This document shows positions 7,200 to 12,621 of a DNA stretch of 64,000 bases, one piece after another (within the stretch, counting starts at the first letter, position 1; each line of letters opens with the position of its first letter). Origin of the DNA: Halobium salinum. GTDB lineage: Archaea > Halobacteriota > Halobacteria > Halobacteriales > Haloferacaceae. The notes below the pieces were generated by a model. The model did not search any database. It had not been told where the DNA came from and was given only the letters and a program-made list of their open reading frames with translations. A program made the translations under genes and the position numbers. Location of the stretch: NCBI RefSeq assembly GCF_026586625.1, contig NZ_JAODIW010000004.1:186001-250000 (forward strand), given 5' to 3'.

Positions 7200-7838
7200 G
7201 TGACGACCTGGATAGAGAACCCCGAAGGCGGCCGCGACCGCGGTCCGGCGGGCTTCGCCCGGGCCTGGCTCGAAGCCCTCGTCCGCCCGCGACGCTTCTT
7301 CCGCAACGGAATCGCCCCCGGCGACCAGGCGCCCGGGCTGGCGTTCGGCGTGTTCGTCGCGCTCTGTTACGTCGTCGGCCTGCTCGCGTTCTCGCCCGAG
7401 CCGGTCGTCGGCACCGAGACGATTCCCCTCGTCGCCGGCAGCGAGGCCGCCACCGCCACCCTGCTCCTGCTCGCCGTCGCGCTGTTCGTCGCTCCCGCAA
7501 CCCTCCACCTGACGGCGGCGCTCCAGACGCTCCTGCTCATCGCCATCGTGCCCGACCGCGGCGGGGTGAGCCAGACCGTCCAGACTATCGCGTACGCGAC
7601 CGCCCCGTGTGTGTTTGCCGGTCTGCCGGTCCCCCTCCTCCGGGTCACTTGCGCCGCCTACGGCGCCCTCCTCTTGGTCGTCGGCGTCGCCGTCGTCCAC
7701 CGAGCGTCGCCCGTCCGGGCCGTCCTCGCCGCCGCCGTCCCGGCGGCGCTCGTCTTCGGCTACGGGTTCGGCGGGTTCGCGGCGGCGGAGGCAGTCCTCG
7801 CCGGCGACGGTCTCGGCGTGGTCGCGGGAGTCGTCTAA
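7200..7838 (+). CDS. Yip1-domain family membrane protein
   Basis: The 212-residue polytopic protein starts at GTG. After a short charged N-terminus it has WLEALVRPRRFFRNGIAPGDQAPGL, the segment that precedes the first helix in haloarchaeal YIP1-family proteins. About five transmembrane helices follow, with a conserved-looking QTVQTIAYATAPCVFAGL between helices 3 and 4. In eukaryotes Yip1 proteins act with Rab GTPases in membrane traffic, but the archaeal function is unknown. The 16-base gap to tdk suggests co-transcription without implying shared function. Confidence 0.75.
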   Translation: MTTWIENPEGGRDRGPAGFARAWLEALVRPRRFFRNGIAPGDQAPGLAFGVFVALCYVVGLLAFSPEPVVGTETIPLVAGSEAATATLLLLAVALFVAPATLHLTAALQTLLLIAIVPDRGGVSQTVQTIAYATAPCVFAGLPVPLLRVTCAAYGALLLVVGVAVVHRASPVRAVLAAAVPAALVFGYGFGGFAAAEAVLAGDGLGVVAGVV

Positions 7839-7887: not shown

Positions 7888-8151
7888 ATGCTCACGCTGA
7901 GCCTCGACGACTTCATGGTCGAACTGGCGGAGGGAACGGTCAAGCACGTCGGCGCCGCGAACACGGCGGCGACGGTCAAACTGTACCACGTCGACGAAGC
8001 CGAGGCCCGGGCCTTCGGCGACTCGCAGGTGAAGTTCGCCTTCGAGGACGGGGAGGGTAACGAGGTGGAGGTCGCACTCGACCCCGAGGCCGTCGAGTCG
8101 CTCCTCGCGGACGTGGAGGCGGTCCGCGAGGAAGGTGTCGTCTTCGAGTAA
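7888..8151 (+). CDS. Small conserved-looking acidic protein of unknown function
   Basis: The 87-residue soluble protein (MLTLSLDDFMVELAEGTVKH start) is predicted to be mixed alpha/beta. A KLYHVDEAEARAFGDSQVKF strand region is followed by GNEVEVALDPEAVESLLADVEAV, an extended strand plus an amphipathic helix. The ATG at 7888 is chosen because longer in-frame extensions upstream lose host-like amino-acid composition. No catalytic motif or known domain is recognised. It stands between the Yip1-type gene and the OB/DHH gene on the same strand. Confidence 0.65.
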   Translation: MLTLSLDDFMVELAEGTVKHVGAANTAATVKLYHVDEAEARAFGDSQVKFAFEDGEGNEVEVALDPEAVESLLADVEAVREEGVVFE

Positions 8152-8277: not shown

Positions 8278-10422
8278 ATGGGTTCGTGTATCATCTGTGG
8301 TACGCCTGTGGACGGGCGTATCTGTGAGTCCCACCAGGAGGACGTCGTCTTCGAATTCCGTGGCGACAGCGCCGACCAACTGACCCCCAGCCGGTTCTAC
8401 ACCGGCGTCGTCGACGGTTACGCCGACTTCGGCGTGTTCGTCGACCTCGCCCCGGGCGTCACCGGCCTCCTCCACCGTAGCGAACTGGACCAACGCCTCG
8501 AGAGCCTCGACTGGGAGGCGGGCGACACCGTGTTCGTCCAGGTGAAGAACGTCCGCGACAACGGCAACATCGACCTCGGGTGGTCCATCCGTCAGCGCGA
8601 GCGGGAGTTCCGCGGCGCGCTCGTCCAGGACGCCGAGGGCGACCACGACCCCGAGGAGGAAAGCGAGAGCTCGGGGGGCGAGCGTGAGGCCGAGTCGCCC
8701 GCCCGCGACGGCGGGACGGCCGCCGAGTCGACCGGTCCCGGGCGCGACGCCGAGGACGCAGACGCCGGCGAGGGCGCCGACTCCGCGGCCGACGTCGAGG
8801 CCGGCGCCCGAGGATACGGTTCGGACGACGGCGACGAGGGGAGCGACGCCGGCGACGGAGCTGAGGCCGAGTCGGACGACCGCGACGCCGAGTCAGAGCC
8901 GACCGCCGAACGCGAGCGCGTCGAAATCGGCACGCTCACCGACCGCGTCGGCGAGGACGTGCGCCTCGAGGGCGAGGTCGTCGGCGCCCGCCAGACCGGC
9001 GGCCCGACGGTGTTCGAAGTTCGCGACGAGACGGGCGTCGTCGACTGCGCCGCCTTCGTCGAAGCCGGCGTGCGCGCCTACCCCGACATCGAGGTCGGCG
9101 ACATGGTCCGTCTCGACGGCGAGGTCGAACGCCGCCGCGGCGAGATTCAGGTCGAGACCGAGGCGCTCCTCGCCCTCGACGGCGAGGAGGCCGAGACGGT
9201 GAGCCAGCGACTCGCCGACGCCCTCACCGACCGCGCCCGACCCGAGGGCCTGCTGCCGCTCGCGGAGCACGACGCCGTCTCCGAGAGCTCCGAGCGCCTG
9301 CTCGACGCCGCCGAGGCCATCCGACGCGCCGTGCTCGAATCGCGCCCCATCGTCGTGCGCCACGCCGCGACCGCCGACGGCTACGTCGCCGGCGCCGCCG
9401 TCGAGCGCGCCGTCCTCCCGCTCATCCGCGAGGAGTACGCCAAGAGCGACGCCGAGTACCACTACTTCACCCGGCGCCCGCTCGACGACGTCGTCTACGG
9501 GATGGACGCCGCGACGAACGACGTGACGCGGATGCTCCAGGACCGCGACCGCCACGACGAGAAGCTCCCGCTCGTCCTCCTGCTGGGGACGGGGAGCACC
9601 TCGGAGTCGCGTGACGGCCTCGGTCTGCTCGGCGTGTACGACGCGAAGCGCGTCGTCGTCGACGCCGTCGCCGCCGACGATGACGTGGCCGAGGACTGCG
9701 AGACGCTCGTCGCCCCCGAGGGCGCAGACGACCTCTCGACGGGCGCGCTCGCCGCGAACCTCGCCGCCGCCGTCAACGACGACGTGCGCGAGGACCTCGC
9801 GCACCTCCCGGCGGTCTCCTACTGGGAGGACGCTCCGGAGGCCTACGTCGACCTCGCGAGCGAGACCGGCTTCGACGCGGAGCGCACCCGCGAAATCCGC
9901 GAGGCGGTCGCGCTGGAGGCGTACTACCAGTCCTACGAGGACAAGCGCGAACTCATCACCGACCTGCTGTGGGCCGACCCCGACGCCGAGGACGGCGCCG
10001 ACGGCGGACTCGCGAGCCACGTCAGCGAGCAGTTCCGCGTCAAACTCGACGACGAGGTCGAGACCGCCGAGGCGAACATGACCGCGAAGGGCGAGGGCGA
10101 CGTGAAGTTCTCCGTCATCGACACCGATGCGTTCACCCACCGCTTCGACTTCCCGCCGACGACGCTCCTGCTCGACGAACTCCACCGCCGGAACCGACAG
10201 GGCGAGCAGTTCGTCACCGTCGGCCTCGGGATGGACGAACTGTACCTCCGCTCCACGAAGTCCCTCGACGTGCGCGCCGTCGCCGAGGCCGCCCGCGAGG
10301 AGGCGCCGGAGGCCGGCATCGCCGCCAGCGGCGTCCGACAGAACCGCATCGAGTTCCTCTCGGGCGCCCGCGACGAGGTCGAGACGGCCGTGCTGAGCGC
10401 GGTCGCCGCGCAGTTCGAGTAA
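8278..10422 (+). CDS. Zn finger-S1-OB-DHH (RecJ/Cdc45-like) protein with degenerate active site
   Basis: The 714-residue protein has these parts in order: a zinc knuckle (Cys4, Cys7, Cys16, His19); an S1 RNA-binding domain (about 37-105, YTGVVDGYADFGVFVDL); an acidic linker (about 120-212); an OB fold (about 213-300, VEIGTLTDRVGEDVRLEGEV); and a DHH/DHHA1-type region. Motif I, normally HxDxDG, reads HAATADG. Motif III, normally DHH, reads VVVDAVAADDD. The C-terminal GGGH motif is replaced by AASGVRQNR. Known DHH enzymes need these acidic and His residues for metal-dependent nuclease activity. I infer a non-catalytic RecJ paralogue, perhaps a Cdc45-like scaffold or nucleic-acid binder. It is flanked by unrelated genes. 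Confidence 0.8.
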   Translation: MGSCIICGTPVDGRICESHQEDVVFEFRGDSADQLTPSRFYTGVVDGYADFGVFVDLAPGVTGLLHRSELDQRLESLDWEAGDTVFVQVKNVRDNGNIDLGWSIRQREREFRGALVQDAEGDHDPEEESESSGGEREAESPARDGGTAAESTGPGRDAEDADAGEGADSAADVEAGARGYGSDDGDEGSDAGDGAEAESDDRDAESEPTAERERVEIGTLTDRVGEDVRLEGEVVGARQTGGPTVFEVRDETGVVDCAAFVEAGVRAYPDIEVGDMVRLDGEVERRRGEIQVETEALLALDGEEAETVSQRLADALTDRARPEGLLPLAEHDAVSESSERLLDAAEAIRRAVLESRPIVVRHAATADGYVAGAAVERAVLPLIREEYAKSDAEYHYFTRRPLDDVVYGMDAATNDVTRMLQDRDRHDEKLPLVLLLGTGSTSESRDGLGLLGVYDAKRVVVDAVAADDDVAEDCETLVAPEGADDLSTGALAANLAAAVNDDVREDLAHLPAVSYWEDAPEAYVDLASETGFDAERTREIREAVALEAYYQSYEDKRELITDLLWADPDAEDGADGGLASHVSEQFRVKLDDEVETAEANMTAKGEGDVKFSVIDTDAFTHRFDFPPTTLLLDELHRRNRQGEQFVTVGLGMDELYLRSTKSLDVRAVAEAAREEAPEAGIAASGVRQNRIEFLSGARDEVETAVLSAVAAQFE

Positions 10423-10530
10423 GGTCCCGGATACGACGGAACGCGACCGGAGCGGTCCGCCGACTCGCCGTTTCTCCCGCCGCGACACCCGCCAGTTACA
10501 GCTTTGTCTCTCGGCCCCGACCTCCCGACG

Positions 10531-11214
10531 ATGTCCGACGCGTACGCCGAGGCCTGGGCGGCACGCCGCGACCTCGACCCCGTCGTCGACCGGTTCGACC
10601 CGGTTCCCGGCTGTGGCCGTCGCCTGACGCTCGTCGTCGACCTCGAGTCGGGGCCGGCCCGCGAGGCGCTCGACGCGGCCGCTCGCGACCTCGACCGCTT
10701 CGACGCCCTCCGAAGGCTGCCACCCGCGTGGTTCCACGTGACGGTGAAGGGAGTCGGGCTCGTCGGCGACGACCCGACCGCCGAGCGCGACCTCACACCC
10801 GAGGCGGCAGAGCGCGTCGAGCGCCGAATCGACGACGCCGTCGCCGGCGCGGATATCGAACCCTTCGAGGTCGCGCTCCCCCGGCTCAACGTGTGGCCGA
10901 CGGTCGTCTTCTGTGAGGCTCGCGAGGCCGGCGACTCCCGCGACGAGGGGACCCTCGCGCGACTCCACCGGCGCGTGCTCGACCTGCCCGAAGTCCCTCG
11001 GGGGGAGTTCGACGGCGCCGCGTACACGCCACACGTGTCGCTCGCCCACTTCGTCGGCGACGACCCGAACGACGTGGCCGCGGCGGTCGACTGGCTCGAA
11101 GCGAACCGTACGGTCGACGCCGGTCGGCTCCGGGTCGAACGGCTCCGGCTTGTCGCGGACGACCCGTCGAGCCCGGAACGCCGGTTCGAGACGGTTCGCG
11201 AGTATCCGCTCTGA
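10531..11214 (+). CDS. 2H phosphoesterase superfamily (2'-5' RNA ligase-like) protein
   Basis: The 227-residue protein has two H-x-T/S-x motifs spaced as in the LigT/2H family: FHVTVKG (about residue 70) and PHVSLAHF (about residue 170). These would form the symmetric two-His active site of RNA cyclic phosphodiesterases, which open 2',3'-cyclic phosphates or act on 2'-5' linkages. The ATG at 10531 is preferred over a TTG nine codons upstream. The RNA substrate is not known. It lies between the OB/DHH gene and an APH-type kinase on the same strand with gaps of 60-110 bases. Confidence 0.8.
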   Translation: MSDAYAEAWAARRDLDPVVDRFDPVPGCGRRLTLVVDLESGPAREALDAAARDLDRFDALRRLPPAWFHVTVKGVGLVGDDPTAERDLTPEAAERVERRIDDAVAGADIEPFEVALPRLNVWPTVVFCEAREAGDSRDEGTLARLHRRVLDLPEVPRGEFDGAAYTPHVSLAHFVGDDPNDVAAAVDWLEANRTVDAGRLRVERLRLVADDPSSPERRFETVREYPL

Positions 11215-11274: not shown

Positions 11275-12621
11275 ATGTCCGCTCCCCACGTGGGGTCCGT
11301 ACGCCTCCATATGACTGAGCAATCTACCGAGACGGGAGTGGCCCCGCCCGTCACCGACCCCGGTGCGGCGCTCGACCGGCGCGTCCGTGCGGTCGACCGC
11401 GCCGAGTTGACGCCCGTGGTCCGGACCGTCGTCGGCGACGCCGCCGCGACGGTCACGAAGTGGTACCGCGACCGGATGCGCGCCGGCGCCGGCGGCGGGT
11501 ACGGCGGCACCGCCATCTGGCGGTTCGCGGGCGTCGCCGCCCTGGACGACGGAAGCGAGACGGCGTGGACGGTCGTCCTCAAGACGGTCGCCGAGCGGGT
11601 CTGGGAGCGACCGACCGACCCGGCGTACTGGCGCCGCGAAGCGGAGGTGTACCGCTCGGGCGTCGCCGCCGACGCCCCCGGGCTGGCGATGCCACGCTGT
11701 TACGCCGTCCGCATCTTCGAGGGGGAGGGGTGCTGGCTCTGGCTGGAGGACCTCGCCGAGGGCGCCGTCCGCGGTCCGGCCGACACGCTCGCCTCGCGGC
11801 GGGCCGCGGCCGTCGAGCGCCCGGGAGCGGAGTCCCGAAGTCGAGGCCGCCGTACCGGGGCGACCCGAGGCAGCGACGAGACCGAGGGCGAGGCCCACTG
11901 GACGCTGGAGGACTTCACCGTCGTCGCCTCCGACCTCGGGCGGTTCAACGCGCACTTCGCGCACCACCCGGTCGAGCCCCGCCCGGACTGGCTCACCGTC
12001 CGCGCGTTCGACTTCCGGCAGACCGCGCCGACGGTCGCGCTCGTCGACTCCCTCCCCGACGACGACCTCGTCCGCGAGGCGTTCCCGGGCGAGCAGGCCG
12101 ACCGCTTGCTCGACGCGTGGCACGCCCGCGACACGCTACTCGCTCGCAGGCGGGACCTGCCGACCACGCTCTGTCACTTCGACGCCTACCCGCGGAACCT
12201 CTTTCTCCGCCCGAGCGAGGACGGCCCACAGACCGTCGCGGTCGACTGGGACCAACTCGCCGACGGCGCCGTCGGGGAGAACGCCGCCGCGCTCGTGATG
12301 TTGAGCCTCGTCTGGGCCGACTTCGACCCGCGGCGCGGCGAGCGTCTGGCGGACGTGGTCTTCGACGCGTACCTCGACGGGCTCCGGGAGGGCGGCTGGG
12401 AGGGGGACAGCGAAGACGTGCGGGCCGGATTCGACGTCCACCTCGTCCTCCGGTGGCTGGAGTTCGTCGGTCGACACGTCCGCTGTCTCGCCGACCCGAC
12501 CATCCACGAGTGGCTGTCGGAGCTGATGGGTCGACCGGTCACGGAGATGCGCGAAGTGCTCCCCGAAATCAACCGGCTGGCGTTCGGGCGGTTCGCGGCG
12601 GTCGAGGCGGCGGGGCGCTGA
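11275..12621 (+). CDS. Aminoglycoside phosphotransferase (APH)-fold kinase
   Basis: The 448-residue protein has a kinase-like fold. AWTVVLKTV supplies the nucleotide-binding Lys. The Brenner motif HFDAYPRNLFL has His301 and catalytic Asp303, and VDWDQL (Asp324) binds metal. These motifs define the APH/choline kinase family, which phosphorylates small metabolites or antibiotics. The substrate here is unknown. A variable Arg/Ser/Gly-rich linker lies near 185-205. The start is uncertain: ATG 11275 is used, but ATG 11311 (MTEQSTETG) is also good and would leave the palindrome CCCCACGTGGGG (11285-11296) upstream as a regulatory site. Confidence 0.75.
   Translation: MSAPHVGSVRLHMTEQSTETGVAPPVTDPGAALDRRVRAVDRAELTPVVRTVVGDAAATVTKWYRDRMRAGAGGGYGGTAIWRFAGVAALDDGSETAWTVVLKTVAERVWERPTDPAYWRREAEVYRSGVAADAPGLAMPRCYAVRIFEGEGCWLWLEDLAEGAVRGPADTLASRRAAAVERPGAESRSRGRRTGATRGSDETEGEAHWTLEDFTVVASDLGRFNAHFAHHPVEPRPDWLTVRAFDFRQTAPTVALVDSLPDDDLVREAFPGEQADRLLDAWHARDTLLARRRDLPTTLCHFDAYPRNLFLRPSEDGPQTVAVDWDQLADGAVGENAAALVMLSLVWADFDPRRGERLADVVFDAYLDGLREGGWEGDSEDVRAGFDVHLVLRWLEFVGRHVRCLADPTIHEWLSELMGRPVTEMREVLPEINRLAFGRFAAVEAAGR

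Follow-up and report, generated by a model that had tools for sequence, protein, structure and literature searches.

The closest described system is that of Haloferax volcanii, from which RecJ3, RecJ4 and RNase J were purified as a 2:2:1 complex (Jia et al, 2023; PMC10470531). According to the text of that report, H. volcanii RecJ4 is devoid of active-site residues, carries a long disordered region between its S1 and OB domains and forms an equimolar complex with active RecJ3, the latter needing RecJ4 to hold RNase J, with RecJ4 described as a scaffold; the SAMP2-modified lysines are said there to be conserved among species. The kind of protein that RecJ4 represents and its probable role are already published in that text (PMC10470531). 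RecJ3, RecJ4, RNase J and Cdc48a are also listed together in the account of a FLAG-Cas1 pull-down from H. volcanii (PMC9051519), and an earlier review contains the prediction that RecJ2 and RecJ4 are inactive, with RecJ4 as a candidate HAN (Hef-associated nuclease; PMC7776575). The HAN proteins (T. kodakarensis HAN, P. furiosus PF0399, RecJ3) are built in the order zinc finger-S1-OB-DHH-DHHA1, the zinc finger being absent from RecJ3 and some others; HAN is described as lacking the CMG-interaction domain and motif V (PMC5717133). More distant are archaeal GAN/Cdc45 and haloarchaeal RecJ2 (arCOG00428), which share the DHH-DHHA1 superfamily fold. The text of Makarova et al (2012; PMC3307487) reports that arCOG00428 proteins likewise have an inactivated DHH domain, and presents arCOG00428, located in the S15-S3ae neighbourhood, as the haloarchaeal Cdc45 candidate.

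A predicted RecJ4 orthologue of the HAN branch

The window (the whole stretch of DNA that was analysed, 64,000 nucleotides in length) contains, at 8278..10422 on the forward strand, a gene of 714 codons that its open reading frame, profile matches and the tree identify as RecJ4, a degenerate HAN paralogue. The start codon is conserved, M1 being invariant among 53 aligned orthologues. In the encoded protein an S1 domain is followed by a disordered acidic insert, then by an OB fold and lastly by a DHH-DHHA1 module. A zinc knuckle occupies residues 4-19 (8287..8334), the S1 RNA-binding domain residues 41-100 (8398..8577; Pfam PF00575, 6.1e-8), the acidic insert residues 127-207 (8656..8898; AlphaFold2 pLDDT <50) and the OB fold residues 228-293 (8959..9156; Pfam PF01336, 7.8e-12), all on the forward strand. 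The presence of C4, C7, C16 and H19 and the two Pfam matches bear out the original prediction that knuckle, S1 and OB are intact. The S1 domain had also been called unusual, an impression that did not hold, as it is ordinary by Pfam and the sole peculiarity found is a very high conservation.

No DHH or DHHA1 match was found in the window protein with Pfam up to an E-value of 10. The DHH-DHHA1 module is nonetheless present, since this region is matched by the NCBIfam HAN profile (residues 192-710, 7.5e-116) and, in a sequence search, by PDB chain 5yh1, the DHH domain of P. furiosus HAN (residues 306-705, 8.3e-43). The traits by which RecJ4 is recognised, namely S1, OB and DHH-DHHA1 domains with active-site residues missing and an extended, acidic and disordered stretch separating S1 from OB, were all found, and the protein resembles H. 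volcanii RecJ4 (HVO_2889) in its S1-insert-OB-DHH order, its missing active-site residues and its relatedness to HAN. Near full-length matches in other Haloferax species show 61-62% identity with the window protein over their best segment. Six Haloferax orthologues contain an exact copy of the RecJ4 peptide published from mass spectrometry, and in 6/6 of these a lysine lies 72 residues past the first residue of the peptide, matching the position of K358 after A286 in the text of PMC10470531. By way of this peptide in other Haloferax species, the window gene is assigned as the putative orthologue of H. volcanii RecJ4. Two differences separate them: the zinc knuckle is kept in the window protein and missing in the Haloferax orthologues, and where H. 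volcanii has the SAMP2-modified K358 the window protein has a glutamate, residue 339. This lysine is found in all six anchorable Haloferax loci (of eight looked at) and in 8/88 RecJ4 overall.

The window protein belongs to the HAN branch, as a haloarchaeal HAN paralogue. It shares the domain order and the fold of the HANs, from which it differs in its lack of catalytic residues, its long acidic insert and its HAN profile score of 388 bits, below the curated NCBIfam cut-off of 840. RecJ4 forms one clade with support of 100/100 (tree subset without the Haloferax rows), on a stem of 1.83 changes per column vs 0.35 for RecJ3. The tree places this clade outside RecJ3 and the basal HANs, a position that is weakly supported (82/74), and a topology test rejected neither RecJ4 with RecJ3 (p 0.484) nor RecJ4 with the basal HANs (p 0.304); the stem is very long, so that long-branch attraction may act on the placement.

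The protein had also been likened to the inactive RecJ forms that act with GINS, and it could accordingly be read as a counterpart of Cdc45, with a structural part in the replicative helicase alongside GINS and MCM. Inactivated RecJ proteins are indeed known archaeal equivalents of Cdc45, according to the text of PMC3307487, and the DHH-DHHA1 fold of the AlphaFold2 model (mean pLDDT 84.1) matches Cdc45 chains with Z up to 22.7 (7pfo_C). However, when the model was compared with RecJ and Cdc45, as had been suggested, PfHAN fitted best, with a VIA Z of 44.0 over 408 residues of 5yh1, against 26.2 for bacterial RecJ. GAN, Cdc45 and RecJ2 belong to another branch and another neighbourhood: the S15-S3ae slot on contig C2 of the host genome (RecJ2 slot) is taken by a separate gene of 411 aa (L163:4003-5238), flanked by S15 (Pfam PF08069) and S3ae (identified by eye), and the window gene, on contig C9, adjoins a Yip1 gene. 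With that slot filled separately and a GAN/RecJ1-type gene on contig C11, the window gene is not needed for a Cdc45 role. In addition, PMC5717133 states that HAN from T. kodakarensis shows no binding to GINS, and recJ4 is reported to be non-essential in H. volcanii (PMC7776575, citing unpublished work). We regard a Cdc45 function of the window protein as barely credible.

Ancient loss of the predicted catalytic residues

The window protein was aligned with 87 orthologues, 36 haloarchaeal RecJ3, five HANs from early-branching lineages and 12 from other orders; the active reference set of 53 HANs consists of the host paralogue (L002) and 52 others. One truncated locus (L090) is included in the counts over 88 rows; the structure alignment and the filtered constraint set do not contain it. 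Ten positions, which we take to be catalytic from the known DHH motifs, are invariant in 53/53 active HANs, and seven of them are lost in the window protein. In motif I (IVVRHAATADG, residues 358-368; 9349..9381) histidine is changed to A363 and aspartate to T365, with D367 kept; in the DN motif (LLGTGST, residues 435-441; 9580..9600) aspartate and asparagine are changed to G437 and T438; in the DHH motif (DAVAADDD, residues 462-469; 9661..9684) D462 is kept and the two histidines are changed to A463 and V464; and in the GGGH motif (ASGVRQN, residues 683-689; 10324..10344) the histidine is deleted, as it is in 88/88 RecJ4, all four motifs lying on the forward strand. The strings HAATADG, VVVDAVAADDD and AASGVRQNR, quoted in the original prediction, are all present in the frame, and its claim that all catalytic motifs are lost stands for the motifs; it goes too far for the residues, as the acidic D367, D462 and D518 remain. 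Intact DHH catalytic motifs, which mark an active HAN, were thus not found, in line with the low profile score. The HAN catalytic positions themselves are based on the text of PMC5717133.

These losses are shared across the orthologues. No more than four of the ten catalytic residues are retained in any of the 88 RecJ4, and the motif I histidine (RecJ3 H257), the motif I first aspartate, the DN asparagine, the first DHH histidine (RecJ3 H357) and the GGGH histidine are each retained in 0/88. A pseudogene or a sequencing or assembly error is ruled out by identical losses in 88/88 orthologues. As judged from this alignment, the predicted catalytic loss in RecJ4 is ancient and fixed.

It may be asked whether RecJ4 could still act as a phosphodiesterase, using the remaining aspartates or other residues in a reduced or re-built metal site. 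D367 is retained in 83/88 RecJ4, D462 in 87/88 and D518 in 44/88, and the persistence of these aspartates makes it possible that RecJ4 binds one metal. Nevertheless, no replacement Asp, Glu, His or Cys is fixed at the lost positions across the RecJ4 alignment, and the segments forming the site vary far more in RecJ4 than in RecJ3, with entropies of 1.47 vs 0.32 at DHH and 1.50 vs 0.05 at GGGH, where the histidine is deleted throughout. Retained phosphodiesterase activity is therefore, in our view, very unlikely.

Two further observations concern related active sites. Motif I reads HADGDG in 36/36 crown haloarchaeal RecJ3, that of the host (L002) included, and HADADG in 17/17 basal and outgroup HANs, which places the change from HADADG to HADGDG in RecJ3 on the stem where RecJ4 may have appeared. 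About 30 kb before the window on contig C9, a gene on the reverse strand (L005 952-2427) encodes a DHH-family protein with no literal DHH triad and weak TrkA-N matches at its N-terminal end, possibly another altered site.

Shift of constraint towards the S1/OB end

Conservation was compared between the two paralogues in 18 genomes carrying both RecJ4 and RecJ3. It is lower in RecJ4 than in RecJ3 for DHH (0.718 vs 0.815) and DHHA1 (0.580 vs 0.831), and higher in RecJ4 for S1 (0.788 vs 0.723) and OB (0.685 vs 0.631). The S1-versus-DHHA1 shift amounts to 0.316 (0.306-0.326 on leave-one-out), and to 0.328 when seven of the 18 genomes, picked as close relatives, are removed. S1 is the most conserved part of RecJ4, and S1 and OB are its most conserved large domains. 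In RecJ4, selective constraint has shifted away from the catalytic module and towards the S1/OB end.

Between S1 and OB lies a segment (aligned 113-215) with a median length of 112 aa in RecJ4 (range 32-168), compared with 10-11 aa in RecJ3 and 11-18 aa in 17 other HANs; it is strongly net-acidic in RecJ4, and the long form is RecJ4-specific. The mean pairwise identity of the insert is 0.21, and owing to this poor conservation in sequence a shared RNase J docking motif is not visible.

At the N-terminal end, the three knuckle cysteines are retained in 74/88 RecJ4 rows; 13 of the 88, Haloferax among them, are gapped where the cysteines would stand, and one row shows other letters there. The knuckle pattern was found in 66/80 RecJ4 loci vs 0/36 RecJ3, and in one of the five basal HANs (that of lineage f5); a longer, DnaJ-type form occurs in 5/12 outgroup HANs. 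The putative zinc knuckle and the predicted active site are divided between the two paralogues, RecJ4 having the knuckle and RecJ3 the catalysis.

Distribution, partner genes and neighbourhood

A RecJ4-level match, defined by an E-value of 1e-135 at most (a RecJ3 by itself reaches about 1e-70 to 1e-88), was found in 384/391 genomes of the class. Three crown-family genomes without such a match (G429, G579, G560) may reflect assembly gaps. HAN-type genes were surveyed in 246 sampled genomes from the phylum: two are present in 47/48 genomes of the window's order, and outside the order 144 genomes have a match, one each, with the exception of one genome with two (G172). Two family-level lineages of the same order, f5 (1/1 genomes) and f33 (4/4), have HAN only, with no RecJ4 found by the searches.

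The host genome encodes the partners described in H. volcanii, namely RNase J and RecJ3/HAN; the latter is a second HAN-family gene on contig C2 (L002), in which every motif is intact and which scores 1104.8 bits against the HAN model. The only widely conserved neighbour of recJ4 among 80 haloarchaeal loci is a gene for a Yip1-domain membrane protein, which lies upstream on the same strand in 71/80 loci and in the window at 7200..7838 (forward strand; PF04893, 4.4e-11).

An alternative is that RecJ4 serves as an RNA-decay adaptor independent of RecJ3, for instance as an S1/OB translation or RNA factor. The rank of S1 and OB among the RecJ4 domains would suit such a role, as would the fact that the conserved neighbour is the Yip1-domain gene and neither recJ3 nor rnj. 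This is opposed by the equimolar complex of RecJ4 with RecJ3 reported for H. volcanii (PMC10470531) and by the nearly perfect coupling of recJ4 and recJ3 within the order, as reflected in the 47/48 genomes with two HAN-type genes; we consider independence from RecJ3 highly improbable.

Other frames around the gene were also inspected. Directly upstream lies an acidic frame of 87 aa (7888-8151), found in 21/80 loci and with no Pfam match at 0.001. Directly downstream is a gene of the 2'-5' RNA ligase superfamily (10504-11214; PF13563, 1.1e-13), for which a link to recJ4 was rejected on its presence in 1/80 loci. It is followed by a frame of 448 aa (11275-12621) that has neither a Pfam match at 0.001 nor a counterpart in the 80 related loci and looks phosphotransferase-like by eye (HFDAYPRN...VDWD).

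Proposed role of RecJ4

We propose, with a probability of roughly 0.85, that the window gene encodes a RecJ4 orthologue, a catalytically dead HAN paralogue forming an RNA-binding scaffold for RecJ3 and RNase J. The protein itself is most likely a non-catalytic, RNA-binding scaffold subunit. The original prediction, a scaffold that binds RNA or DNA without catalysis and might serve in RNA decay, is consistent with the function described for H. volcanii RecJ4 in the text of PMC10470531 and with the constraint pattern. It can be hypothesised that, in the host organism, RecJ4 and the intact RecJ3 from contig C2 would pair in a mixed complex, in which the acidic disordered insert may recruit RNase J and the zinc-knuckle/S1/OB end may present RNA or single-stranded DNA to the 3'-5' exonuclease site of RecJ3, RNase J being presumably restrained by RecJ4 in the meantime.

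RecJ4 and the missing RNA exosome

The exosome subunit Rrp41 (TIGR02065) was not found in the host genome, and it is missing from all 18 genomes of the order that were tested. In five of these 18 the searches also found no RecJ4 (G123, G416, G580, G483 and G589, the last being 64% complete and searched with the HAN profile only). Outside the order, six of the 19 genomes tested have no Rrp41, and these six carry one HAN gene each. The notion of RecJ4 as a replacement for the exosome is weakened, as Rrp41 is missing also in genomes of the order without RecJ4. The occurrence of lineages f5 and f33 with neither exosome nor RecJ4 rather suggests that RecJ4 was an addition postdating exosome loss, and not the replacement itself.

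Rrp42 is an inactive subunit of the exosome ring, and Csl4 is its S1/zinc cap. It is conceivable, though we hold it to be unlikely, that an ancestral HAN split in crown haloarchaea into mutually dependent RecJ3 and RecJ4, the pair taking the place of the RNA exosome. Catalysis would have stayed with RecJ3, which gave up the zinc knuckle; RecJ4, no longer catalytic, would have retained knuckle and S1 and acquired an acidic insert for docking. RecJ4 would then resemble a fusion of Rrp42 and Csl4, would supply RecJ3 with RNA and would tether RNase J, and the pair would have arisen once the exosome was already gone.

What the present analysis adds to the published account is the shift of constraint, the RecJ4-specific insert, the division of knuckle and active site, and the early exosome-less lineages without RecJ4. 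Text searches of the literature returned no description of the constraint shift or of the knuckle/catalysis split in the article passages covered. The comparison predicts that RecJ4 function would survive mutation of the old active site and fail upon mutation of S1 or of the acidic insert. In the nuclease complex, which may substitute for the RNA exosome missing from haloarchaea, RecJ4 would be the non-catalytic half.
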